In this document: one piece after another, positions 3,296 through 20,754 of the stretch
How the letters are laid out: each line of letters begins with the position of its first letter
Position numbering within the stretch: the first letter of the stretch is position 1
Assembly: GCA_017627765.1 (NCBI GenBank)
Contig: JAGAGD010000032.1
Location: 1-38,442, forward strand
Reading direction: 5' to 3'
Length of the DNA stretch: 38,442 nucleotides
Origin: Prevotella sp.
Lineage (GTDB): Bacteria > Bacteroidota > Bacteroidia > Bacteroidales > Bacteroidaceae
The notes under the pieces: model-generated
The model's database searches: none
The model's input: only the letters and a program-made list of their open reading frames with translations
Told to the model about the DNA's origin: nothing
Made by a program: the position numbers and the translations under genes

Positions 3296-5065
3296 CTACT
3301 TTATATTAATACAATAAGGAATGCGAGCCTGAATTGCATTCTGATGACTTATGCTCTTAAGCATCATCAATGGTTCATACAATTCGCCAAATGTTCCCTT
3401 AAGTTGTTCATCAAGATAATTTCCTGCAGCCCTTGTAGCAGATAGCTGATCAAAGAAGGATAATGGAGCAGGATAGCTATATGTCTTATAGTCTTTAATT
3501 TTTGCAAGTTGAGCTGCTTTTGCAACAGCCTCATCAAGTCCGCCAAGTTGGTCTACAAGCTTTATTTTTATAGCATCTATACCCAACCATACGCGACCTT
3601 GAGCAATCTTGTCGACATCAGCTACATTCATTTTTCTGCCATCAGCCACACGCTTGAGGAAAAGAGCATATCCACGCTCAATATACGACTCTAAGAAGCT
3701 CATCTCTTCAGCGTTGAAAGGACGTGCCATTGTGCCCATCGCACTATTCTTATTAGTCTTCACCTCATCGAATGTAACTCCAAGCTTATCTTTCAGAAGT
3801 CCGCTAAAGTCTGGGAACATGCCAAATATGCCAATGCTTCCAGTAATGGTAACAGGCTCTGCAACTATCCAGTTTGAATTACAACTCATATAGTAACCAC
3901 CAGAAGCAGCCATTCCACCCATTGAAACAACTACAGGTTTCTTTGCTTTCAGCATCTCAATAGAATGCCACATCTGCTCAGAAGCATAGGCACTTCCACC
4001 ACCAGAATTAATTCTAAGAACAACAGCCTTAACATCATCATCGTTCATAAGTCGCTCTAAATCTTTACATACTGCCTGAGCATCTATAACATCATCTTGG
4101 TTTAACATGCCCTGAGCACCATCAACAATGCTTCCGTATGCATAGTAGACAGCTATTTCATCACCTTTGTTTCGTTTCTCTTTTACATTTCTCATGTCGG
4201 CAATGCTCAACTGGTTGAGATTGTCGTCATCGTCTATTTTCATAAGTTTCTTAACTTCGCTTTTAACCTGATCGGTATATAGCAGAGCATCTACCATTTT
4301 TGACTTCAGATAAGTGTCAGTTGAAACAAATGTATAAGGCTGGTCTGCATAAGCATTAAGCGTCTCTGCTGGAATTTTGCGCGATTTTGAAATGTCACTT
4401 ATTACTTGATTCCATATACCTGTGAGCATCTGGGTAATCTGCTCACGATTTGGCTCACTCATCTTGTCGGCAGTGAATGTTTCAGGCGCACTCTTATATG
4501 TACCAACCTTTGCAAGTTGCATCTTCACACCGAACTTAGCCATAAGGTTTTTCAGATAATAAGGCTGTGAAGATAAACCACGCCAGTCAATCTGCCCCTG
4601 TGGGTTGATAAAAACTTTATCTGCAGCAGATGCCAGATAATATGTGGGTTGTGTATAAGTATCGCCATAGGCTACTATCCACTTTCCTGTTTTCCTAAAA
4701 TCGAGCAATGCCTTTCTGACTGCAAGAAGCGAAGCATAAGAATCAGAAGAAAACATACCTGCCTCAATATAAATACCCTTAACCTTGTCATTGTCTGTAG
4801 CTTTTCGTATTGCTCCGAGCATATCGTCAAGACCAATTGTATTTTCATCAATACCACGCAGACGATTAAAAATATTGTCGTTAGCTCTCTCATTAAGATT
4901 GCCAGACAGGTTAAGAACAAGTACTGAGTTATCACTAATGTTTTTAGTAGACTCAGATGAAGCCACCATTCCCACCATACACATTATGCCTATAAAACCT
5001 AATGCTACGAAAAAAATAATTAAGCCAACTATAGTGGCTCCTGTCATTTTAAGAAATTCTTTCAT
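3296..5065 (-). CDS. sppA: Signal peptide peptidase SppA (67K type)
   Basis: Membrane-bound serine protease that degrades cleaved signal peptides. One N-terminal transmembrane helix (about residues 10-34) precedes two tandem ClpP/crotonase-like domains. The lysine of the Ser/Lys dyad is in KVGTYKSAPETF (K191 from the start chosen here). The serine is in MGGMAASGGYYMSC (S389). Length is 589 residues, typical of the long form. An upstream TTG at 5089 would add eight residues, but it lies inside the -7 box of the promoter at 5087-5118, so the ATG at 5065 (MKEFLKM) is preferred. It is the first gene of the operon sppA-lpxK-punA-thiL. The first copy of the long repeat begins about 110 bases upstream of its promoter. 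Confidence 0.93.
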   Translation of the reverse strand: MKEFLKMTGATIVGLIIFFVALGFIGIMCMVGMVASSESTKNISDNSVLVLNLSGNLNERANDNIFNRLRGIDENTIGLDDMLGAIRKATDNDKVKGIYIEAGMFSSDSYASLLAVRKALLDFRKTGKWIVAYGDTYTQPTYYLASAADKVFINPQGQIDWRGLSSQPYYLKNLMAKFGVKMQLAKVGTYKSAPETFTADKMSEPNREQITQMLTGIWNQVISDISKSRKIPAETLNAYADQPYTFVSTDTYLKSKMVDALLYTDQVKSEVKKLMKIDDDDNLNQLSIADMRNVKEKRNKGDEIAVYYAYGSIVDGAQGMLNQDDVIDAQAVCKDLERLMNDDDVKAVVLRINSGGGSAYASEQMWHSIEMLKAKKPVVVSMGGMAASGGYYMSCNSNWIVAEPVTITGSIGIFGMFPDFSGLLKDKLGVTFDEVKTNKNSAMGTMARPFNAEEMSFLESYIERGYALFLKRVADGRKMNVADVDKIAQGRVWLGIDAIKIKLVDQLGGLDEAVAKAAQLAKIKDYKTYSYPAPLSFFDQLSATRAAGNYLDEQLKGTFGELYEPLMMLKSISHQNAIQARIPYCINIK

Positions 5066-5086
5066 CTCAATATTTGTTTTTAGTTG

Positions 5087-5118
5087 CAAATATATACAAA
5101 ATAGAATGAACCACCAAA
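5087..5118 (-). promoter_or_regulatory. Bacteroidota-type promoter of the sppA operon
   Basis: On the minus strand, TTTG (complement of 5115-5118) is followed after 20 bases by TATATTTG (complement of 5087-5094). This matches the primary sigma factor pattern of Bacteroidota. The predicted start of transcription is near 5083, leaving an 18-base leader to the ATG at 5065. Confidence 0.7.
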
Positions 5119-5227
5119 AAATTTTAAGTGTTTCTAACTATTTAGTACCTTTGATGACTCAAGTAAAAATGGAAACACACAAAAATAATATAACAATTCA
5201 CACATCAACTTTTAGTCTGAATGCATG

Positions 5228-5675
5228 TATGAAAAATATTGACAAAATGCCATTTTTCTTGCAGAAAAAAGTCTTTCAGAATCGGTTGTTTTGCCATTGC
5301 CTTCACAGTTGTCCATCCGTCAAGTTTTACGCGCCTAGAAAAGAAATTTTCTGTAAATACCTATCATTCAACGATTTGCAAAAGGCGGAAAAACGATAGG
5401 TATTGTCTCGTAATGCGAAAGGTGCCCTTTCGCACTGTCATATGTGATGGTTGACCATGTCAAACGTATCGTTTCGCATTGTCATATGCCACATATTGCA
5501 AACGCTAACAAACCTTTCAATCGTGAACATCGGTTAAAATTATTCACGCTCTTTAAGTATATTGATTAACAACTTCATGGATTTTAAGTTTTCAGCGTGC
5601 CAAACTAAAAAATCAATAAATAGTTCCAGTACTCTTTATCGTTCCAGTTTTTTATTATGAAATATTTTGACAAAA
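5228..5675 (+). repeat. Long intergenic repeat, copy 1 (448 bases), function unknown
   Basis: This stretch is matched along its length by 15767-16213 in the same orientation. The right-hand ~290 bases differ at about 15 positions by my count. Bases 5412-5478 are identical to 15950-16016 (67 of 67). The left ~150 bases are more diverged. Both ends carry a similar 20-base direct repeat (tatgaaa..att.tgacaaaa). Inside are a 10-bp stem (5356-5365 with 5395-5404), a perfect 9-bp stem with a 3-base loop (5414-5434), and a 17-base direct repeat (5428-5444 and 5472-5488, one mismatch). No reading frame is shared by the two copies. I do not recognise it. It fills the gene-free space between sppA and the gene at 5717. 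Confidence 0.9.
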
Positions 5676-5716
5676 AGAGAAAAATAACATCTAAATTCTG
5701 CATTATCTGAATATAA

Positions 5717-7279
5717 TCATTCAAGATATTTCTCATAATCACAAAGCAGTTGGTCGAAGTCGCGAGCACCACCAGTTCTATTAAATAATTTTTGCAATAA
5801 TCTTACACGCATATTTGTAATTGCCTGTGGAGATGAACATGTAAGAATAGCTATCTCTGACGGAAGAAAATTCTGTCTGATAAGCAAACAGACATTAACC
5901 TCACGCTCACTTAACGAAGAAAATAGTGACTGCAAATTGGGGCGGAGAGCAAACGAAATTTGTGCCAAAGTATTCCAGTCATCGCTGCTTCCCTCTCTAC
6001 CCTTCATTGCAAGGTTGTGCAATCTGCTAACTATTTCCTTCAATTGCTTTGAATTTTCTCTTTCCTCTCTTTCTTTAGCTTTACGCATCTGCGTAAGTCG
6101 CTCACTGGTAAGGAAATATGCCTCTTGACTTTCAGTAAAACGCGAATTAAGTTGGTCTACCCTTCGGAAATGATACCAAACAAATAAACCTATAACAATA
6201 GAAAGACCAATGAACACAAAAAGCATTGCAATTGTTGTGCGATATACCTTACGTTCATCTTGCATTTTGTCAAATTGCATCTGAATATCAATTGTATTTG
6301 CTGCAGTTCCATTTTCAAATATATTGTCATAGTAACGATTAAGTTGCATGCTAAGCAATGAAGCAACACGCGGAATATCCTTTTTAAGATGAAAATCAAT
6401 CAACGACTTGTAGGCATTTATGCGAATACTTGAACTGAAAGCATTAATATTATGATACCATAATTCCACTGCACGCATAGTATCTCTTTCCTTCATGTAG
6501 ACATCAGCCAACAGCTTGTATCCTTTCTCTGTTGGAAAAACTTGTCGTGCTTCTTCAAGTAATCTTTTTGCCTGTTCTCTCCGGCCTAAATTCAGATAGT
6601 AACTTGCAAGGTTGACAAGGAAAGTAGAATAAATCTCACTATTATCTTTTTTCAACATAGGTCTGGCAGTAATTAAATATTTTTTCAGACTGTCATTCTT
6701 CCCTACAAGGTCAAATGTTGTAGCAATATTATTTAATGTCTGAACGATTCTGGTTGTATCGCCAAGATTCTTTGCTGCTTTCAAAGCGCGCCTATAGTAA
6801 GAAAGAGTTAATGGCACATTGCCTGCGTTGTCATTAATATCACCCAAAACTGAGTATAGATAGAATTTGAATGCGTCATTATTTATATTCTTCGAAAGCA
6901 GTTCCGCTCTCTTTATGTTATGTATACCTTCGCTCAAGTGCTGCTTTTTATAGAGTATAATTCCATGATGCAACAAAGCGCGTGCAAGATGTGGATTGTC
7001 GCCGATGCGCTCATAATATTTGCTACAAATAGAAATAAGTGAATCAGACTCTACTGAAAGTCCACTACAATGCAAAGATTCTATAAAAAGCAGTATATAC
7101 AGAGCTCGGTCACCTTCACGTTCAAACTGCTCAACATCATAGTCACTAAGAATACCTACAACAGTATCAGGCTTAAAATTGATAAGAAGTTCTGCCTCTT
7201 TCAAAACATCATTGTGAGGCTGTCGCAAAGAACAGCTCACAATGACGAAACCTATTATACATATTAAATAATACCGCAT
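5717..7279 (-). CDS. TPR membrane regulator with C-terminal LuxR-like HTH
   Basis: A 520-residue protein with a lipobox-like or signal-anchor N terminus (IVSC, Cys16). A helical region with several TPR-like repeats spans about residues 90-300, followed by one transmembrane helix at about 349-370. A charged coiled coil covers about 380-420, and a C-terminal helix-turn-helix about 455-505 (LSEREVNVCLLIRQNFLPSEIA), like the LuxR/GerE fold. This architecture is common in Bacteroidota, where such proteins are thought to couple envelope or peptide signals to transcription. Targets cannot be read from the sequence. It lies 101 bases downstream of the TonB_C gene on the same strand and may be cotranscribed with it. 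No own promoter was obvious. Family known, role inferred. Confidence 0.75.
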   Translation of the reverse strand: MRYYLICIIGFVIVSCSLRQPHNDVLKEAELLINFKPDTVVGILSDYDVEQFEREGDRALYILLFIESLHCSGLSVESDSLISICSKYYERIGDNPHLARALLHHGIILYKKQHLSEGIHNIKRAELLSKNINNDAFKFYLYSVLGDINDNAGNVPLTLSYYRRALKAAKNLGDTTRIVQTLNNIATTFDLVGKNDSLKKYLITARPMLKKDNSEIYSTFLVNLASYYLNLGRREQAKRLLEEARQVFPTEKGYKLLADVYMKERDTMRAVELWYHNINAFSSSIRINAYKSLIDFHLKKDIPRVASLLSMQLNRYYDNIFENGTAANTIDIQMQFDKMQDERKVYRTTIAMLFVFIGLSIVIGLFVWYHFRRVDQLNSRFTESQEAYFLTSERLTQMRKAKEREERENSKQLKEIVSRLHNLAMKGREGSSDDWNTLAQISFALRPNLQSLFSSLSEREVNVCLLIRQNFLPSEIAILTCSSPQAITNMRVRLLQKLFNRTGGARDFDQLLCDYEKYLE

Positions 7280-7380
7280 TAATAATCACCAATTATTCTT
7301 GTATTAAATATTATTAGAAAATATCGAAAAACTGTTTGAAATATATAAAGACTATTTTTCCTTACCATTCTATAATTATT

Positions 7381-7794
7381 TCATCTAAGTTTAAAAGTTA
7401 TTGGCAATGTAAACTTCGTACGCACAGGCTTACCATCTATTTTACCAGGATTCCATTTAGGCATTCCTTCAATAATCCGCTTTGCTTCTTTGTCAAGTGA
7501 TGGATGGGCGTTACGAATAATGTCTACATTAGTTATACTACCATCTTTCTCAACTACAAAAGTAACTATAACCCTACCTTCAATGCCTTGTTTTTCTGCA
7601 TCCTTTGGGTACCTCATGTTTGATGCTAAATAATGATTTATTCCATTCCCATTAGAAGGAAAAGATGGCATTTCATCAACTTTGAGAAAAATTTCATCTT
7701 GGGTTGTTTTTTTTGAGACCACAGTTTTCTGTGCATTAATAGCCATCAGACCGAAAACAGCCATCAGACTTAATAAAAACATTTTCCTTTTCAT
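7381..7794 (-). CDS. Secreted protein with a TonB C-terminal domain
   Basis: A 137-residue protein with a cleavable signal peptide (about residues 1-21, ending INAQ). It is followed almost at once by a TonB_C domain (about 50-137: YLASNMRYPKDAEKQGIEG, VTFVVEKDGSI, and ending LPITFKL). It lacks the inner-membrane anchor and proline-rich spacer of a classical TonB. It therefore probably acts as a free periplasmic domain, perhaps binding TonB boxes or partner proteins, rather than as an ExbBD-powered transducer. The domain call is firm and the role is not known. It is transcribed from promoters at 7847-7878 and perhaps 7979-8011, and precedes the TPR/HTH regulator. Confidence 0.8.
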   Translation of the reverse strand: MKRKMFLLSLMAVFGLMAINAQKTVVSKKTTQDEIFLKVDEMPSFPSNGNGINHYLASNMRYPKDAEKQGIEGRVIVTFVVEKDGSITNVDIIRNAHPSLDKEAKRIIEGMPKWNPGKIDGKPVRTKFTLPITFKLR

Positions 7795-7846
7795 GACTTC
7801 TTTTGTTTTTTTTAAATTAATAATTGAGTATATTGTCCGGACGATG

Positions 7847-7878
7847 CAAAGTTATAAATTGGCTGATTTCAGTGCAAA
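7847..7878 (-). promoter_or_regulatory. Promoter of the TonB_C-domain gene
   Basis: Minus strand: TTTG (complement of 7875-7878), 20 bases, TAACTTTG (complement of 7847-7854). Leader to the ATG is about 50 bases. A second match with a 21-base spacer (complement of 8008-8011 and 7979-7986, TATCTTTG) lies further upstream. The rest of the 7795-8205 gap is AT-rich and holds the groES control region near its right end. Confidence 0.65.
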
Positions 7879-8144
7879 AAAACTATTACATTAAATTACA
7901 CACAATCCGATTTTTGTCTTATTTTCTAACAAAAAGAGATGAAAAACATTCAATCTGCATATAATAAGCAAAACTATGCAAAGATATAAAGAATAATAAT
8001 GTAAAAACAAAACACTTACACTTGCAAAGAATAATTATCACTTACAAAGTAAAAAAGAATGTACGATACATTATTATATAGTAAGATGTCAAAAAGGCAC
8101 AATGACACGCTGACAAACTGTAACTTTTTACATAATATATTCAC

Positions 8145-8162
8145 TTTGGCACAGTTTTCGTA
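8145..8162 (+). promoter_or_regulatory. Possible sigma-54-like promoter element for groES-groEL
   Basis: The segment TTGGCACAGTTTTCG at 8146-8160 has a full TTGGCAC (-24-like) half. Its -12 half (TCGT where TTGC is expected) is only partial. It lies 46 bases before the groES ATG. No TTTG/TAnnTTTG promoter with proper spacing was found there. Just upstream, 8086-8119 contains TGTCA/TGACA/TGACA words that could be an operator. This is inference from one imperfect match. Confidence 0.35.
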
Positions 8163-8205
8163 TTATTGGTAAGTAGAAAATTTAAAATAATAAAATATTA
8201 CAACT

Positions 8206-8475
8206 ATGAACATTAAACCATTAGCAGACCGCGTGCTTATTTGCCCAGCACCGGCAGAAGAAACAGTAGGTGGAATTATTATTCCAGACACAGCAAAAGA
8301 GAAACCACTTCGTGGAAAAGTAATTGCTGTAGGCAACGGAACAAAAGACGAAGAAATGATTCTGAAGATTGATGACGAAGTTCTATACGGCAAATATGCA
8401 GGAACAGAACTTGAGTTTGAAGGAGAAAAATTCTTAATGATGCGCCAGAGTGATGTGCTTGCTGTTATCAAATAA
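8206..8475 (+). CDS. groES: Co-chaperonin GroES
   Basis: Heptameric 10-kDa lid of the GroEL folding chamber. At 89 residues it is the standard length, starting [11 protein letters not shown]. It has the mobile loop region [17 protein letters not shown] at about 18-34 and the C-terminal strand ending SDVLAVIK. It is the first gene of the groESL operon, with groEL following after 92 bases. The ATG at 8206 is the only start compatible with the conserved N terminus. Confidence 0.98.
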
Positions 8476-8525
8476 GGAATCATTTAGAAAAAGAATATAA
8501 GTTTAAACATAAACAAAAAGGTTAA

Positions 8526-10196
<1,671 letters not shown>

Positions 10197-10237
10197 TTCA
10201 GACAATAATAGAAATATAAAGCTTTGACAAATAGTCC

Positions 10238-10283
10238 AAAAACGGAAAAAGAGCCATACAAATTGGCTCTTTTTTCGTTTTTA
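10238..10283 (+). terminator. Strong intrinsic terminator after groEL
   Basis: A 19-bp stem (10238-10256 with 10264-10282, one G-T pair) with a 7-base loop. The T-rich 3' arm continues as T's. It ends the groESL transcript before the separate unit at 10316. Confidence 0.9.
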
Positions 10284-10315
10284 TTGTTCGTGAAGTTTCT
10301 TTTTATCTAAAATAT

Positions 10316-10346
10316 TTTGTGGTTTAATAAAAAACATATACCTTTG
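10316..10346 (+). promoter_or_regulatory. Consensus Bacteroidota promoter of an orphan short transcript
   Basis: TTTG at 10316-10319, a 19-base spacer and TACCTTTG at 10339-10346 match the consensus exactly. Predicted start is near 10350. The only thing downstream on this strand is an intrinsic terminator about 100 bases away. Confidence 0.75.
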
Positions 10347-10349
10347 CAC

Positions 10350-10458
10350 TCCGATTTAGAAAAGGAATAAGAACATTTTTTTGATTTGTTTTAGTAGATT
10401 AGTTTTTAAGTAGTTTGTTTTTTGGAAATCGGGTGTCGTGATGACATCCGGTTTTTTT
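10350..10458 (+). ncRNA. Candidate small RNA of about 105-110 nt
   Basis: The segment is bounded by a consensus promoter and a terminator hairpin (10430-10437 with 10443-10450, one G-U pair) followed by seven T's at 10452-10458. The transcript would begin tccgattt. Bases 10351-10357 (ccgattt) can also pair with 10426-10432 (aaatcgg), which overlaps the 5' arm of the terminator, so two exclusive folds are possible. The middle is U-rich. No start codon with a credible frame is present, and the next gene is convergent, so it is not a leader. I do not recognise a known RNA family. Could also be a degenerate leader left from a lost gene. Confidence 0.55.
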
Positions 10459-10469
10459 ATTATAACAAA

Positions 10470-11051
10470 TCAAACAAGAACAACGGTAACACTTCTTGCT
10501 GCTTGTGCTCCCATTACGAGAACTTGTGCAATGTCTGCTGTCTTAGAAGGACCACTTATAAATGTGCCATATCCATAATCATTGAACGCTATCTGCTTAT
10601 ATGCTTCATGCATATTATTTAATATCCTATCTTTTTCCAATATAATTATTAGATTCTCAGAAATGAAACATACAGCCTTTTCTTTCATTGTCTGCGGAAT
10701 CCATATACATCCATTTTCGGCAACACCAAATTCCCCCTTAATGACACCTACGTCTGTTCCATTAAGAGTTTGAGCATCTTCCACATCATCGGGATTGCTA
10801 GTAGCAATGGTTACTTCTGGAAGATTGCTCGAAATAGTCTTAGCTTCGGGATAACATTTCTTTATTAAGTCATTAATACTTTCATAACTTTCAATCTTAA
10901 CAACCTTGGCACCAACACTTTCGCTAACATCTATAAACTGCCTTAAAACATCTTCATAAGTTACAGACTTGATGTCATTGAGGTTAGGCATGTCAAACTT
11001 TTCTTTTACGTTTGCACGAAACCTTCTTAAAATATCTTCTTTATTACTCAT
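10470..11051 (-). CDS. lutC: Lactate utilization protein LutC (LUD domain)
   Basis: Third subunit of the LutABC L-lactate oxidation complex, cytosolic. The 193-residue protein is a small LUD/DUF162 (YkgG) domain: MSNKEDILRRFRANVKEKF at the start, VTIATSNP in the middle, GVIKGEFGVAENGCIWI and the C-terminal ISGPSKTADI segment typical of the fold. Its ATG overlaps the lutB TGA by four bases (ATGA at 11048-11051), which indicates translational coupling. The order lutA-lutB-lutC on the minus strand matches the Bacillus lut and E. coli ykgEFG operons. Confidence 0.9.
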   Translation of the reverse strand: MSNKEDILRRFRANVKEKFDMPNLNDIKSVTYEDVLRQFIDVSESVGAKVVKIESYESINDLIKKCYPEAKTISSNLPEVTIATSNPDDVEDAQTLNGTDVGVIKGEFGVAENGCIWIPQTMKEKAVCFISENLIIILEKDRILNNMHEAYKQIAFNDYGYGTFISGPSKTADIAQVLVMGAQAARSVTVVLV

Positions 11052-12421
11052 TTCTTTTCAATATCTTTAAAAATTGCATGGAATGGTTTCTTTGGGAATT
11101 TCATCATAGTGTGTCCTTCTGCCCATGAATTAAGAGGCATATTTATTATAAAAGAAGGCACATAGTTTGCTAACCACGCCATAGACGTAGCTGTATTATA
11201 TATAAAAGGGCTGTCAAATACAACCTTCATACCTTTACACATAAGTTTCTTCTCTGGGTTGGCAGTGCCAAAATCGTCTAACTGCTGACGCCATTTGTAT
11301 ATCTGGTCACCTAAGTCAATCTTAACCGGACATACTGACTGGCAACTAAGACACAATGTACATGCACTAACATTTCCTGAATGCATTTTTTTATCTCTGA
11401 GCATACCAAGATTGATTCCTACAGGTCCTGGTATGAAATAACTATATGAATAACCGCCAGAACGACGATATACAGGACAAGTATTCATACATGAACCACA
11501 TCTTATACATTTCAATACTTCCCAATGCTCAGGATTTGCAACCCATTCACTACGACCATTATCTACTAGAATAATATGCATCGGTGATGCTGTTGGTCTA
11601 GCTTTTCTAAAGTGAGAAGTGTAAGTTGTTGTAGGCTGCCCTGTTCCTGCCCTGCACAACATACGCAGGAATACGGCTAGACAATCATAATCAGGAATCA
11701 CCTTTTCCAAACCAATAGCTGCTATATGAAGTTTTGGACATGACGTTGACATATCAGCATTTCCTTCATTTGTACATACAACAATATCACCCGTTTCTGC
11801 AATACCAAAGTTTGCTCCAGTCATGCCTGCATCTGCGGTCAGAAACTCGTTTCGTAAACTCAGGCGAGCTTTATATGTAAGATACGTTGGATCATGATTT
11901 CCAATTTCGTCAGATATCCCTTTTTCTTCAAATAGTTCACCTACATCATCATGGTTCAAATGAATTGCAGGCATAACAATATGACTTGGTTTCTGTCCTT
12001 TAAGCTGAATTATCCTTTCCCCTAAGTCTGTTTCAACAACCTCTATGCCTCTCGATTCAAGATATGGATTCATTTCGCATTCCTCCGTTAGCATAGACTT
12101 AGACTTAACCATTTTTTTAACATTATGCTCTTTGAGAATCTTATATACTATATCGTTGAACTCCTCAGCATCTTTTGCCCAGTGAACTATTGCACCATTA
12201 TTTTCTGCATTTGTTGCAAACTTATCAAGATACTCATCAAGATGACTTATAGTATGACGCTTGATTGCAGATGCTTTGTCGCGCAACTGTTCCCACTCAC
12301 CTAGAGCATAAGCCATGTTGTCACGCTTAGTCCTTACCGACCAAAATGTTGCATCATGCCATTTCATATAGCCTTGATTTTTTATAAAATCCTTAGCCTT
12401 CTTGCTATGCTGTGTACTCAT
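11048..12421 (-). CDS. lutB: Iron-sulfur lactate utilization protein LutB
   Basis: Electron-carrying subunit of L-lactate oxidation to pyruvate. 457 residues: an N-terminal LUD domain (about 60-290, with TGANFGIAETGDIVVCTNEGN) and a ferredoxin-like part with two 4Fe-4S motifs, CIRCGSCMNTCPVY (near 307-320) and CTLCLSCQSVCPVK (near 357-370). A C-terminal DUF3390-like tail follows. Length and order match LutB/YkgF. It starts 49 bases after lutA and overlaps lutC by four bases. Confidence 0.94.
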   Translation of the reverse strand: MSTQHSKKAKDFIKNQGYMKWHDATFWSVRTKRDNMAYALGEWEQLRDKASAIKRHTISHLDEYLDKFATNAENNGAIVHWAKDAEEFNDIVYKILKEHNVKKMVKSKSMLTEECEMNPYLESRGIEVVETDLGERIIQLKGQKPSHIVMPAIHLNHDDVGELFEEKGISDEIGNHDPTYLTYKARLSLRNEFLTADAGMTGANFGIAETGDIVVCTNEGNADMSTSCPKLHIAAIGLEKVIPDYDCLAVFLRMLCRAGTGQPTTTYTSHFRKARPTASPMHIILVDNGRSEWVANPEHWEVLKCIRCGSCMNTCPVYRRSGGYSYSYFIPGPVGINLGMLRDKKMHSGNVSACTLCLSCQSVCPVKIDLGDQIYKWRQQLDDFGTANPEKKLMCKGMKVVFDSPFIYNTATSMAWLANYVPSFIINMPLNSWAEGHTMMKFPKKPFHAIFKDIEKK

Positions 12422-12470
12422 AAAATATTCTGTTTTAAGTTTATTATTTTACTAAAACTCATTAAAAATA

Positions 12471-13208
12471 CTATAATCCAGATGCAAGTATTTCCACAAC
12501 ATGCTTGAACTTCATTTCAAGTTGCTGCTTATCTGCTACACCTGCCATGTGCATAAGACAAGAGCAATCAGGTCCAGTAACATATTCCGCACCAGTTGCG
12601 ATATGGCGTTCAACTTTCTCCTTACCCATTTGCGCACTAATACTCTTCTCTTCTACAGAAAACATTCCGCCAAATCCACAGCATTCGTCAGAACGCTCTG
12701 GCTCAACAACAGTAATTCCATCTACGAGTTCAAGCAGATCTTTTATTTTATTAAACTTTTCTACATGCATTTCACTAGGCGACGAAAGCCCCAGCTCTCT
12801 TACACCGTGACAAGAATTGTGCAAACTCACTTTGTGAGGAAAACTTCCTAATGGCATGTCAATCTTTACAATATCGTGCAGAAATTCTACCACATCCATT
12901 ATTTTTTCACTCGTAACACACTCGTGCCTGCCTTTAAGCAGTCTAGGATAATTGAGCTTTACGAAAGCAGTGCAACTTACTGAAGGTGCAACAACATAAT
13001 CAAAATCTCTGAATTTATCCTCAAATCTCTCTGCTAATCCCACAGCCTGCTTTTCAAAACCTGCATTTGCCATTGGCTGGCCGCAACAAGTCTGATTAAT
13101 TGGATATGTCACATCAAGATTTAGATGCTTTAACAATCTATATGTGGCAATACCTACTTCAGGAAAAACGGCATCAACATAACAGGGTATAAAAAGTCCT
13201 ATCTTCAT
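12471..13208 (-). CDS. lutA: Lactate utilization protein LutA (CCG-domain oxidoreductase)
   Basis: First subunit of the LutABC complex. 245 residues with two cysteine-rich CCG domains: CTxxxx-type PINQTCCGQPMANAG near residues 37-51 and SDECCGFGGMFSVEE near 173-187. HNSCHGVREL lies near 132-141. These bind an Fe-S or heterodisulfide-reductase-type cluster. It is the first gene of the operon, with a promoter at 13297-13329 and an 85-base leader. The divergent neighbour lldP makes the physiological role, lactate use, very likely. Confidence 0.93.
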   Translation of the reverse strand: MKIGLFIPCYVDAVFPEVGIATYRLLKHLNLDVTYPINQTCCGQPMANAGFEKQAVGLAERFEDKFRDFDYVVAPSVSCTAFVKLNYPRLLKGRHECVTSEKIMDVVEFLHDIVKIDMPLGSFPHKVSLHNSCHGVRELGLSSPSEMHVEKFNKIKDLLELVDGITVVEPERSDECCGFGGMFSVEEKSISAQMGKEKVERHIATGAEYVTGPDCSCLMHMAGVADKQQLEMKFKHVVEILASGL

Positions 13209-13296
13209 AATGTTTCTTAAATATTATATCAACTATTTTGCTTACAGAATAAATTATTGTCCAGTTAAAACATCAAACTAGCGACATTTAACTATG

Positions 13297-13329
13297 CAAA
13301 TATATAAATTTAATTTCATTATAAGCAAA
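13297..13329 (-). promoter_or_regulatory. Promoter of lutABC
   Basis: Minus strand: TTTG (complement of 13326-13329), 21 bases, TATATTTG (complement of 13297-13304). It lies in the 255-base divergent region shared with lldP. I saw no clear regulator palindrome there. Confidence 0.65.
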
Positions 13330-13396
13330 ATTCAGCAAAAAATCTTTCATTTTGTCATTTTACATCATCAAAGTATATTGTTTCTGATGTTTTTTG

Positions 13397-13404
13397 TATC
13401 TTTG
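13397..13404 (+). promoter_or_regulatory. -7 box upstream of lldP
   Basis: TATCTTTG is a full match to the Bacteroidota -7 element. The only TTG upstream (13378-13380) is 16 bases away, shorter than usual, so promoter strength may depend on an activator. Predicted leader is about 57 bases. Confidence 0.5.
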
Positions 13405-13463
13405 CAGCAATAATTTATACAAACTAGTCAAATATATTTATAAAACAATCAAAATAATAATCT

Positions 13464-15020
13464 ATGACAGCATTAGTCTCTATTATCCCTATTGCACTGC
13501 TTTTTGTATTAATGTTAGGCTTTAAGATGCCTGGACACAAAAGTGCATTCATAACTCTGATAACAACAGTATTACTCGCGCTGTTTGTCTCGCCGTCAAT
13601 GAACATGATTTCAGAACCGTTGTCCAGTTTCTCAACCTCTGGCATTGTTTGGTGGTCATTCGTAGAAGGTGTACTTAAAGCCATCTTCCCAATCCTTATT
13701 ATTATCCTAATGGCTATATACAGCTACAACATTCTTGTTGAATCTCGCGAAATAGAGGTTATAAAAACTCAATTTACTTCTTTCACAGAAGACAAAGGAG
13801 TTTTAGTTTTAATGCTTGTATGGGGATTTGGCGGACTACTTGAAGGAATGGCTGGCTTCGGAACTGCTGTAGCAATACCTGCTGCCATACTTATCGGATT
13901 AGGTTTCAAACCTTTATTCTCAGCATTAGTTGCACTTATCGGTAACACTGTTGCTACAGGTTTTGGCGCAGTCGGGGTACCTGTAACGACACTGTGCAAC
14001 GAAGTAACTCCAGGCGGAAGTGCATCAGCGGAGACAATCTGTGAAATTTCTTCATACGCTGTTTTCCAGTTAGCACCATTATTCATTATCTTACCATTCA
14101 TCATATTAATGCTAACAGACAAAAAAGCAATTGTAAAGAATATTACTCTTTCACTATGGGTCGGAATAATATCACTAATAGTACAATACATGTGCGCCAG
14201 GCATCTTGGAGCTGAAACACCAGCGATAATAGGTTCGGCAGCAGCAATAGTTGCAATAATTGTGTATGAGAAATGCTTTGGAAAAAAGAAATATGAAGCA
14301 GACAAAGCTAATGCCAAACGCTTTACAATGGGCGAAACATTCAGAGCATGGAGCGTATATCTCTTTATTCTTGTTTTTATCCTTTTCAGCGGAGCCCTCT
14401 GTCCTCCTATTAACAGTTTTCTGAAATCACACCTCGTTTCTACAGTCCATTTACCCATTATTGGCTCTACATTTAAATTTGGATGGATTTCAAACGCAGG
14501 ACTCATGCTTTTCCTTGGTTCCACCATCGGAGGACTTATTCAAGGTCTATCATTTAAGAAGCTGATGGTTGTACTGGCACACACAGTAGTAAACCTGCGC
14601 AAGACCGTTATTACGATAATATCACTTATTGCTTTAGCATCAATAATGAATTATAGTGGCATGATTGCAGCAATCGCTTCTGGACTTGTCGCAATAACAG
14701 GCAATTTATATCCTATCTTTGCTCCGCTTATTGGTGCTGTAGGCACATTCGTAACAGGTAGCGACACTTCGTCTAACATTCTATTCGCTAAACTGCAAGC
14801 AAATGTAGCAACTCAACTAAACTATCCTAACAGCAACTGGCTCGTGGCAGCAAATACAACTGGTGCAACTGGTGGCAAGATGATTTCTCCGCAGAGCATT
14901 GCAATAGCCACAGCATCGTGTGATATGCAAGGTAAAGACGGACAGATTCTATCTCAAGCGTTACCATTTGCCATTATGTATATTATAATAAGTGGACTTA
15001 TGGTATTTTTCGCTGTATAG
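13464..15020 (+). CDS. lldP: L-lactate permease LldP
   Basis: Proton-coupled uptake of L-lactate (and probably D-lactate or glycolate) across the inner membrane. 518 residues made almost wholly of hydrophobic helices (about 12-14). Characteristic lactate permease segments are GFGGLLEGMAGFGTAVAIPA (about 117-136), VGVPVTT, GAVGTFVTGSDTSSN (about 431-445), and NTTGATGGKMISPQSIAIA near the end. Length fits the LctP family (about 500-560). It is transcribed divergently from lutABC and ends at a strong bidirectional hairpin. It also supports the lactate-oxidation reading of LutABC. Confidence 0.95.
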   Translation: MTALVSIIPIALLFVLMLGFKMPGHKSAFITLITTVLLALFVSPSMNMISEPLSSFSTSGIVWWSFVEGVLKAIFPILIIILMAIYSYNILVESREIEVIKTQFTSFTEDKGVLVLMLVWGFGGLLEGMAGFGTAVAIPAAILIGLGFKPLFSALVALIGNTVATGFGAVGVPVTTLCNEVTPGGSASAETICEISSYAVFQLAPLFIILPFIILMLTDKKAIVKNITLSLWVGIISLIVQYMCARHLGAETPAIIGSAAAIVAIIVYEKCFGKKKYEADKANAKRFTMGETFRAWSVYLFILVFILFSGALCPPINSFLKSHLVSTVHLPIIGSTFKFGWISNAGLMLFLGSTIGGLIQGLSFKKLMVVLAHTVVNLRKTVITIISLIALASIMNYSGMIAAIASGLVAITGNLYPIFAPLIGAVGTFVTGSDTSSNILFAKLQANVATQLNYPNSNWLVAANTTGATGGKMISPQSIAIATASCDMQGKDGQILSQALPFAIMYIIISGLMVFFAV

Positions 15021-15034
15021 ATTTAAGAATGAAA

Positions 15035-15070
15035 AAAATAGGCTCACGCACATTGTTGTGAGCCTATTTT
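15035..15070 (+). terminator. Bidirectional terminator between lldP and the MaoC-like gene
   Basis: Perfect 13-bp stem (15035-15047 with 15058-15070), 10-base loop. It has T's on the right and A's on the left, so it can serve lldP (plus) and the convergent gene ending at 15139 (minus). Confidence 0.85.
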
Positions 15071-15138
15071 GTATATGTAGTATGTTATGCCCTTACTAGC
15101 AGGAAAAAACAACAGTCAGTCTGCACAAATAACATATA

Positions 15139-15603
15139 TCAATTAAAATAATAGAGAAATGAAGAAATACCCTCGAGTGCTGGTTTTCGCTGACCTTCAA
15201 TCTCTATTCTAAATGCGATTTCAGCTTTGCATATTCCACGAAGATTGGTTATCTGATGCAATTTAGTAACAAGCCTAATTCTGCTACCAGTTATTACGGG
15301 CTGACCAAATCTCATCTTGTCCATACCATAATTCACAAGCATCTTGATATTATTCACTTCAATAATCTGGTCCCACATATAAGGCAGCAATGAAAGTGTC
15401 AGATAGCCATGTGCAATTGTACTCTTATAAGGGCTTTCTTGCTTCGCCTTCTCTGTGTCTACGTGAATCCACTGATGGTCTAGTGTTGCGTCAGCAAACA
15501 TGTTTATCCGTTCCTGATCAACCGTCAACCAATCAGAACAACCTAACTCCTCACCAAGATGAGATGCAAACTCATCATAAGAATTAATTACTAATTTTGA
15601 CAT
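15139..15603 (-). CDS. MaoC-like hot-dog dehydratase/(R)-enoyl-CoA hydratase family protein
   Basis: 154 residues of a single MaoC-type hot-dog domain. The active-site region is present: FADATLDHQWIHVDTEKA (about 32-49) supplies the Asp and His dyad, and IAHGYLTLSLLPYMW (about 63-77) the following helix. Such proteins hydrate trans-2-enoyl-CoA to (R)-3-hydroxyacyl-CoA. The substrate here is not known and no fatty-acid gene is adjacent. It stands alone with its own promoter (15625-15656) and a shared terminator. Length matches the short single-domain form. Confidence 0.82.
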   Translation of the reverse strand: MSKLVINSYDEFASHLGEELGCSDWLTVDQERINMFADATLDHQWIHVDTEKAKQESPYKSTIAHGYLTLSLLPYMWDQIIEVNNIKMLVNYGMDKMRFGQPVITGSRIRLVTKLHQITNLRGICKAEIAFRIEIEGQRKPALEGISSFLYYFN

Positions 15604-15624
15604 AATACATTGAATTTAAGGCTG

Positions 15625-15656
15625 CAAATATACTAAAATAAAATTTAAAAAACAAA
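15625..15656 (-). promoter_or_regulatory. Promoter of the MaoC-like gene
   Basis: Minus strand: TTTG (complement of 15653-15656), 20 bases, TATATTTG (complement of 15625-15632). Predicted start near 15621, leader about 18 bases. The second long-repeat copy begins 111 bases upstream, almost the same distance as between copy 1 and the sppA promoter. Confidence 0.7.
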
Positions 15657-15766
15657 AGAATTAAGATTCAATAATTATGATTTTAATCTCTAAGATTTAC
15701 ATTTTGAAAATAAATAATATGTTAAAAATTTTCTGTCTGAAATAGAAATGTAAATTCTAGAGAAAA

Positions 15767-16213
15767 TATGAAAAGTTTTGACAAAACACCCTTTTTCTTG
15801 TCTGAAAAAATCTTTTAGAATCGGTTGTTTTTCCATCTACCTCAAGTTGTCCATCCGTCAAGTTTTACGCGCCTAGAGACAATTTTTTCTATAATTATCT
15901 ATCATTCAATGATTTGTAAGAGGCGGAAAAACGATAGGTATTGCTTCGGAATGCGAAAGGTGCCCTTTCGCACTGTCATATGTGATGGTTGACCATGTCA
16001 AACGTATCGTTTCGCACTGTCATATGCCACATATCGCAAACGCTAACAAACCTTTCAATCGTGAATGTCGGTTAAAATTATTCACATCCTTTAAGTGTAT
16101 TGATTAACAACTTCATGGATTTTAAGTTTTAAGCGTGCCAAACTAAAAAATCAATAAATAGTTCCAGTACCCTTTATCGTTCTCGTTTTTTATTATGAAA
16201 TATTTTGACAAAA
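15767..16213 (+). repeat. Long intergenic repeat, copy 2 (447 bases), function unknown
   Basis: Partner of 5228-5675, same orientation and practically the same length. Ends carry a 20-base direct repeat: tatgaaaagttttgacaaaa at 15767-15786 and tatgaaatattttgacaaaa at 16194-16213 (18 of 20 identical). The 9-bp hairpin (15952-15972) is unchanged. The first stem is kept as 15896-15903 with 15933-15940 through a U-G pair. The internal 17-base direct repeat (15966-15982 and 16010-16026) is here perfect. It occupies most of the 15604-16351 gap, between two divergent genes. The remaining bases on either side are AT-rich without recognisable features except the two promoters. Confidence 0.9.
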
Positions 16214-20642: not shown

Positions 20643-20674
20643 TTTGAATTTATAAATAACATATAATATAAGAC

Positions 20675-20718
20675 AAAAGGCTAAGCACTTATACATGAAT
20701 ATTTGCTTAGCCTTTTTA
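20675..20718 (+). terminator. Intrinsic terminator of guaA
   Basis: Perfect 13-bp stem (20675-20687 with 20704-20716), 16-base loop, T-run at its 3' end. Confidence 0.85.
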
Positions 20719-20754
20719 ATTATACTATAAAATATATAGTTCTAACAATAATAT

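Follow-up and report, generated by a model that had tools for sequence, protein, structure and literature searches.

A dispersed intergenic repeat of Prevotella sp. built around an array of 22-bp palindromic bricks

Copies in the window and in the source genome

The window, i.e., the whole stretch of 38,442 nucleotides of Prevotella sp. DNA which was analysed, carries two nearly identical sequences outside its genes, and the question raised by this locus is what kind of element they represent. Copy 1 occupies positions 5228–5675 on the plus strand (448 bp). Its neighbours are an S49-peptidase (sppA-like) gene at 3296–5089 and a TPR-domain gene at 5717–7279, both on the minus strand, the latter facing the copy with its 3' end. 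Copy 2, at 15767–16213 on the plus strand (447 bp), adjoins a MaoC-domain gene at 15139–15603 on the minus strand. Re-alignment of the copies, which lie on the same strand, gave 405 identical columns of 448 (90.4%) with one gap, and a separate comparison recovered the pair independently. The longest identical run comprises 67 bases (5412–5478 with 15950–16016), and 26 differences fall in the first 150 columns against 15 in the right-hand 290. The ends, the lengths, the 67-base run and the approximately 15 right-hand differences given in the original prediction were thereby reproduced to the base.

Searching the 2.48-Mb source genome, a draft of 88% completeness with contigs ending in the repeats, returned eight full-length or nearly full-length copies of 87–100% identity, and beyond these one copy with an internal deletion as well as fragments. 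Solo right ends were also present. Chance is excluded, since the E-values of the eight copies were 3.9e-152 or lower, and a local duplication of two copies only, which had been considered beforehand, is ruled out by the genome-wide count. A related, larger family has at least 40 members in the same genome. Intergenic position was assessed with open frames of at least 600 nt, counting overlaps of more than 60 bases. No frame overlapped any of the eight copies or of 30 further own-genome elements, and all eight copies lie between genes, in agreement with the non-coding status first proposed. The 448-bp element is a dispersed, multicopy, non-coding, intergenic repeat. It had no match in plasmids and phages, and no second species carrying the 448-bp family was found.

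In the original prediction, each copy starts 110–111 bases upstream of a minus-strand gene's promoter. Measured to open frames and not to promoters, the distance to the gene on the left is 139 bp for copy 1 and 164 bp for copy 2. With the element read in its own orientation, four of the eight copies have a minus-strand neighbour on the left and the other four a plus-strand one, so that the placement is no general rule, and a regulatory island linked to a particular arrangement of genes is not supported. Divergent, convergent and tandem arrangements were all seen in the open-frame survey, and no gene-orientation rule emerged from the eight copies and the 30 further elements.

Brick arrays, arms and ends

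The core of the 448-bp element is an array of 22-bp palindromic bricks. Each brick pairs two 11-bp half-sites which face each other, so that their orientation alternates along the array and dyad axes recur at 11-bp spacing in the eight copies. The array of copy 1 spans 5414–5504 on the plus strand (bricks 5414–5437, 5438–5459, 5460–5481 and 5482–5504), and that of copy 2 spans 15952–16042 on the plus strand (bricks 15952–15975, 15976–15997, 15998–16019 and 16020–16042), for which TRF reported a 22-bp period. A spacing of 11.0 bp between dyad axes was the first or second autocorrelation peak in all seven sets, taken from eight genomes. The letters of the half-sites vary among species and among bricks. 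In the larger family the array is the longest well-conserved stretch (0.92–0.98 over 30 rows), but some windows in the arms are conserved as strongly (0.95, 0.96 and 0.98).

Arrays are flanked by an arm motif and by a TGAAWAATNNTKACA-like end motif, the latter read by eye. The arm motif TTGATTAACAA lies on the plus strand at 5562–5572 in copy 1 and at 16100–16110 in copy 2, and its core is common to the larger family of the genome. The element ends carry TATGAAA.A.TTTGACAAA, with 38 matches in the source genome and none for the control. On the plus strand, the left terminal motif was located at 5228–5247 in copy 1 and 15767–15786 in copy 2 (motif search, one mismatch in both cases), and the right one at 5656–5675, in the orientation of the left motif, and 16194–16213 (motif search). 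The 20-bp end motifs of the 448-bp family are thus direct and not inverted, and direct 20-bp ends were also seen by eye in elements of the genomes G156 and G170.

Direct ends of this kind, together with the existence of solo motif copies, would fit attachment-like recombination sites of a circular element. We regard this as very unlikely, as the motif is inverted at two places of the source genome (C86:28956/29375, and C43:19095/19515, where each motif has one mismatch), and several solo copies look like remnants and not like empty targets, because they retain inner right-end sequence.

Occurrence in the genus and published relatives

Brick patterns with various letters were enriched in 51 of 398 genomes of the genus. 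The single-brick pattern had 6–190 matches in 20 of the 398, its reversed control at most 2. A two-brick pattern was found in both letter types across genus genomes, where some of the low counts may be unrelated palindromes. Its reversed control was not neutral but itself enriched (236 in G108, 212 in G017), because the bricks of these two genomes carry those letters. It was treated as signal, and the background was taken from the single-brick scan (reversed 0–2) and from a scan outside the genus, in which neither reading rose above chance. Arrays were read directly in 23 genomes, 20 of them within the enriched 51. As a stand-in for a comparison with the PINSR consensus (below), the core of the larger family was searched against 150 genus genomes; 13 matched, its own included and the others by short brick stretches, and G108, which lay within this range, was absent among the 13. 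Elsewhere in the order, for the two letter types tried, brick patterns occurred at chance level. A wider pattern scan of contigs, which may omit records near the source genome, gave 18 stretches, unread, which were judged to be chance from the spread of organisms. The element class was found in a single genus, inferred to be Prevotella sensu lato. A strand polarity of arrays along replicons was rejected by fuller place lists, those for G372 being incomplete.

It had first been stated that no such element was known in this group, and this needs amending, since PINSR is a published relative by architecture, and the closest one to the 448-bp element. According to the available part of its description, PINSR is a 188-bp intergenic repeat of Prevotella intermedia and P. 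nigrescens with function not known; two strains carry 177 and 184 copies, and about three-quarters of the sites are common to both (PMC4755523). That part reads it as clade-specific and without terminal inverted repeats, and mentions neither a 22-bp nor an 11-bp periodicity (PMC4755523). Like PINSR, the 448-bp element and the larger family are dispersed, non-coding, intergenic and present in many copies, whereas the window element differs in its 448-bp length, its brick letters and its arms. G108, of the same genus as the window, has brick elements of about 190 bp, and one of these matches 13 places of a P. nigrescens record (best 192 bp, 78.6%). PINSR is for this reason very probably a brick array, the comparison being made via G108 elements and not letter by letter with its consensus, which is in figure form. 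As an architecture, restriction to intermedia/nigrescens does not hold given the enriched genus genomes, while the PINSR sequence itself may be clade-restricted.

The BrickBuilt MITE of Porphyromonas gingivalis is intergenic, with 19 copies and a tandem-repeat core between leader and tail; its period is 23 nt, with 1 to 22.8 repeats, it has short TIRs like those of ISPg1, and bidirectional promoter activity was shown in E. coli (PMC4596501). The likeness lies in an intergenic multicopy element with a repeat core flanked on both sides. However, its TIRs (Table 2, PMC4596501) are unlike the ends found here, and its 23-nt tandem repeat without spacers contrasts with period 22 and 11-bp dyads. It also belongs to another bacterial genus and has another sequence.

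REP and BIME arrays of enterobacteria and pseudomonads are short alternating palindromes, intergenic and in many copies, and BIMEs bind proteins. The arrays here share the short palindromes, the alternating orientation, the intergenic position and the copy number, all of which would suit mobilisation by a Y1 (RAYT) transposase, but they differ in strict 11-bp dyad spacing, species-specific letters and the lack of a RAYT-type transposase link. Nothing was found for PF01797 in the draft source genome. The domain was present in 8 of 18 genomes picked as array-positive against 9 of 18 picked as negative, or 8 of 19 against 9 of 17 after G108 was moved from negative to array-rich. Its presence does not follow that of arrays, and RAYT mobilisation is barely credible.

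Shared sites, folding and a candidate role

Between the two close relatives G170 and G156, 36 of 56 array places share a flank partner, and in 12 of 19 others the array place aligned in the stretches compared; no empty site was seen among the sites resolved. For eight of ten loci in G372, one or more of the neighbouring genes also lie beside an array in G170 or G156. Ortholog identity was 0.950 at columns conserved among paralogs against 0.882 at other columns, which include intergenic bases outside the element (27 of 30 pairs, p = 3.5e-8). This test excluded anchoring bases and concerns one species pair, with 30 pairs of 48 resolved chosen for unbroken alignment. Part of the paralog conservation could stem from a recent common origin, and conversion can homogenise repeats that form hairpins.

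These data bear on a non-autonomous mobile element, one of the suggestions made at the outset. Dispersed copies of high identity, a common end motif with an inverted arrangement at two places, the internally deleted copy, the solo right ends and the intergenic position could all belong to a MITE-like transposon with no host role, in which the bricks would be the hairpin body and the end motif the transposase site. We consider this a real but minor possibility. The end motifs of the 448-bp family are direct, no target duplication was visible by eye in the flanks of the eight copies (L004 and L007 in opposite orientation), and no autonomous copy was seen in a search for PF01797 and the end motif. 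The lack of empty sites among those resolved between G170 and G156 and the better preservation of paralog-conserved columns between species also speak against it. Past mobility of the element is nevertheless plausible from its dispersal, common ends and truncated copies.

A multicopy RNA had likewise been suggested. Compared with shuffles, the minus strand of the 448-bp family folded better in eight of eight copies (z-scores -2.0 to -4.8) and the plus strand in none, the eight copies not being independent in this test. In 20 cores of the larger family the mean z-score was about -4 on either strand, and on each strand 19 of the cores scored -2 or lower; in 20 G170 elements the means were -3.4 and -2.4 on the two strands. 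These negative scores would suit a transcribed structural element acting in RNA, such as a terminator, a 3'-UTR hairpin chain or a small RNA, which we find quite improbable. The strands of the larger family fold about equally, as expected of inverted-repeat DNA; given this and the overlapping registers in which dyads follow each other at 11 bp, no single RNA fold is favoured. The absence of a gene-orientation rule also weighs against it, and Rfam 15 covariance models gave no match (whole window at gathering scores; 5100–5800 at E up to 1). A strand-specific RNA as a general property was rejected, as the asymmetry is absent in the larger family; for the 448-bp family, the folding signal would allow a minus-strand RNA.

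Our preferred reading, to which we give about an even chance, is of a once-spread repeat which is now kept, probably as a docking or structural site at the DNA level. In each lineage the element would have multiplied as a non-autonomous repeat whose ends served for recognition. With a spacing of 11 bp, close to one helical turn, the dyad axes would all come to lie on one face of the DNA. Copies may then have been kept because a putative DNA protein, dimeric or oligomeric, binds the array, or because the array forms an extruded cruciform. The role would be at chromosome level, such as organisation, a boundary or the relief of supercoils, as in BIMEs, and not the control of one adjacent gene. 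An unlikely, more far-reaching version is a genus-wide combinatorial DNA code, in which arrays of 11-bp half-sites at fixed intergenic sites would organise the chromosome, PINSR would be one dialect, and the reader is predicted to be a dedicated, fast-evolving DNA-binding protein co-diverging with the half-site letters of each species.

PINSR, unexplained in one clade, is seemingly one spelling of an architecture found across dozens of species in a genus that is abundant in the mouth and gut. Constant geometry, changing letters, shared positions and better conserved columns together make a testable case that intergenic repeats of bacteria can be kept for a role at chromosome level, and they also point to where an array-reading protein may be sought.

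Copies of the element and its larger family

The original prediction described two near-identical, non-coding stretches, each about 447 bases long, separated by 10.5 kb and in the same orientation, and this description proved exact. Copy 1 (5228-5675) and copy 2 (15767-16213) are identical in 405 of 448 columns with one gap, a 67-base identical run lies at the predicted position, and the right-hand 290 columns hold 15 differences, as noted. The draft genome of the window (2,478,662 bases in 120 contigs, 88% complete) was searched with copy 1 and holds eight copies of full or almost full length (437-449 bp, 87-100% identity) on six contigs, which excludes a local duplication of the two. Two of the aligned loci, L004 and L007, ran in opposite orientation. 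The same search gave an internally deleted copy in two pieces (L018 and L009) on contig C35, together with a 3' fragment (L010) and short fragments of the right end. The repeat is real and no local accident. A search of 59 other genomes with the 448-bp element returned one weak match, confined to the brick core, so the version with arms was seen in one species only.

Both ends of the element carry the 20-bp motif TATGAAA-A-TTTGACAAAA in the same orientation, according to the copy alignment and a repeat finder. The 19-base end motif had 38 matches in the genome with at most one mismatch, while its reversed control had none. The motif is direct in the 448-bp family, whereas it forms an inverted pair at two places, C86:28956/29375 and C43:19095/19515, the latter with one mismatch each. 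No target duplication was visible in the alignment of the 448-bp copies. Right-end modules lacking the array were seen at L011:377-416 and L012:1501-1535; inverted CCGTTATCGTT-type ends around them hint at a further small repeat, roughly 90 bp long. At L014, on contig C26, the short tandem repeat GTTAAGGTTAAAG immediately adjoins a solo right end.

With a weaker hit as query, 39 further elements of 83-89% identity were found in the same genome besides the query, a floor, as 40 of 176 candidates were scored. Several of them reach contig ends, as is usual for repeats in draft assemblies. Thirty elements of this larger family were aligned, and no well-conserved stretch was longer than the brick array, where 20-column windows scored 0.92-0.98 of rows; the adjoining arms ranged from 0.74 to 0.98, with single windows up to 0.95, 0.96 and 0.98.

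Geometry and folding of the brick array

Bricks are palindromic units of 22 bp, each with two half-sites of 11 bp. Copy 1 carries four of them mid-element (5414-5437, 5438-5459, 5460-5481 and 5482-5504), copy 2 has its array at 15952-16042, both with a 22-bp period, and the arm motif TTGATTAACAA comes after the array. Complementarity was scored around every possible axis in seven array sets from eight genomes, with 2-40 arrays per set; two of the four arrays from genomes G082 and G113 had no anchor and were left out. A spacing of 11 bp between axes was the first or second autocorrelation peak in all seven sets, further peaks fell mostly at 22 and 33 bp or close by, and strong dyads averaged 2.0-6.0 per array against 0.9-1.5 in single-letter shuffles. 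These results make the array a run of 11-bp half-sites whose orientation alternates, with roughly one half-site to each turn of the helix. The half-site letters in the window's genome are AAAGG, AAACG and ATATG, and by eye they are different in other species. Locus L331 (G319:C5) repeats 22-bp units AAATCAATTTGTTTTGCCGAGC several times over, a purer tandem form of the same period.

The minus strand of the 448-bp copies folded better than shuffles in 8/8 cases (z -2.0 to -4.8) and the plus strand in 0/8, with 30 shuffles each, the eight copies not being independent. Among larger-family cores (20 of 30 folded) z was -2 or lower in 19/20 on each strand, and among elements of genome G170 (20 of 56 folded) the same held for 15/20 and 11/20 on the two strands. 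Two-strand folding is what inverted-repeat DNA gives, and no RNA is singled out.

Genomic positions, constraint and mobility

Gene context was read from open frames of at least 240 nt, from which frames overlapping a longer one, and frames below 600 nt reaching more than 60 bases into an element, were dropped. After this filter all eight copies of the 448-bp element and all 30 larger-family elements were intergenic; the L050 element shares 32 bases with a short open frame. Flanking genes of these 38 elements were convergent, divergent and tandem with no orientation rule, seven of the 30 lacking one neighbour. One filtered frame, plus-strand 4785-5399, is antisense to the sppA-like gene and enters copy 1; it is disfavoured as coding because sequence changes break shared frames, a point already made in the original prediction. 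Elsewhere in the window, a 43-bp imperfect inverted repeat without spacer (20653-20738) is possibly a terminator.

All brick places were taken with flanks from two genomes closely related to each other, each in two contigs: 56 in G170 (contigs 1,796,408 and 1,371,874) and 57 in G156. By flanks, 36 of the 56 had a partner place in G156, with the array itself lacking clear alignment in at least two (L207, L245). The other 20 entries, two of them one place, were traced in fetched G156 stretches, where the array place was aligned in 12 of the 19 places and seven were unresolved. No empty site was seen among the array places compared. In G372, eight of ten loci had at least one neighbouring gene in common with a G170 or G156 array locus.

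In 30 G170/G156 ortholog pairs, chosen from 48 for unbroken alignment, paralog-conserved columns had an identity of 0.950 against 0.882 for the remaining columns, and scored higher in 27/30 pairs (p = 3.5e-8, 17 anchoring bases excluded). Remnants of old insertions evolving neutrally would be expected to lose identity evenly, so the difference suggests selection, or else conversion between copies. A rearrangement breakpoint was observed near one array: L291 (G156:C2) matches L231 as far as about position 2045 and, from there on, L245 in the other orientation; L231 and L245 both belong to G170:C2.

The transposase family examined for a link to arrays, Y1 (PF01797), is absent from the window's draft genome. 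It occurred in 8/18 genomes chosen as array-positive and 9/18 chosen as negative (8/19 and 9/17 with G108 recounted as array-bearing), which rejects the link. Plasmid and phage collections gave no match to the window's element. Beside one array, the 346-bp stretch L195:904-1249 (G170:C1) is missing at the same G156 site with a 7-base junction overlap, and related stretches occur in L220, L234, L314 and L188; it has the appearance of an independent MITE-like insertion that duplicated 7 bp of its target.

Distribution and relation to known repeats

Pattern AAAGGNNNCCTTTNGCA had 6 to 190 matches in 20 of 398 genus genomes and at most three in the remainder, its reversed control at most two per genome. 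A two-brick pattern with freer letters reached at least five matches in 31 of the 398; its reverse did so in 18, 13 of them new, and is another brick spelling, hence no neutral control. Adding seven AAAGGNNNCCTTTNGCA-pattern genomes missing from the two-brick lists, brick patterns are enriched in 51/398. Arrays were read in 23 genomes, 20 of them within the 51. Elsewhere in the order, 9 of 392 genomes had one match each and 12 had one reversed match, chance level with these letters, in a sample including only two other genomes of the genus and three from other genera of the family.

In the broad sense the repeat is of a known kind. PMC4755523 describes PINSR, of unknown function, as a repeat of 188 bp between genes of P. 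intermedia, two strains carrying 177 and 184 copies and sharing about three-quarters of the sites; there it is taken as non-coding, without terminal inverted repeats, and is found in four related species but PCR-negative in other clades tested. G108, of the window's genus, has brick elements of about 190 bp, one of which matches 13 places in a 568-kb P. nigrescens record (best 192 bp, 78.6%) and a single place in P. nigrescens F0103. This match makes it very probable that PINSR is a brick array, the likeness being drawn through the G108 element, not the PINSR consensus, and marks the genus as Prevotella in a broad sense. BrickBuilt of Porphyromonas gingivalis (PMC4596501) is an analogue with a period of 23 nt and ends other than those here.

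Open-licence papers dealing with PINSR, or with palindromic or MITE-type intergenic repeats of Prevotella, were not found to describe the genus-wide architecture. The features that appear novel are the geometry of 11-bp half-sites, the occurrence of differently spelled arrays across many species, and the higher conservation seen at shared positions. The function we infer is that the element most likely serves as a DNA-level docking or structural site within a once-spreading repeat.
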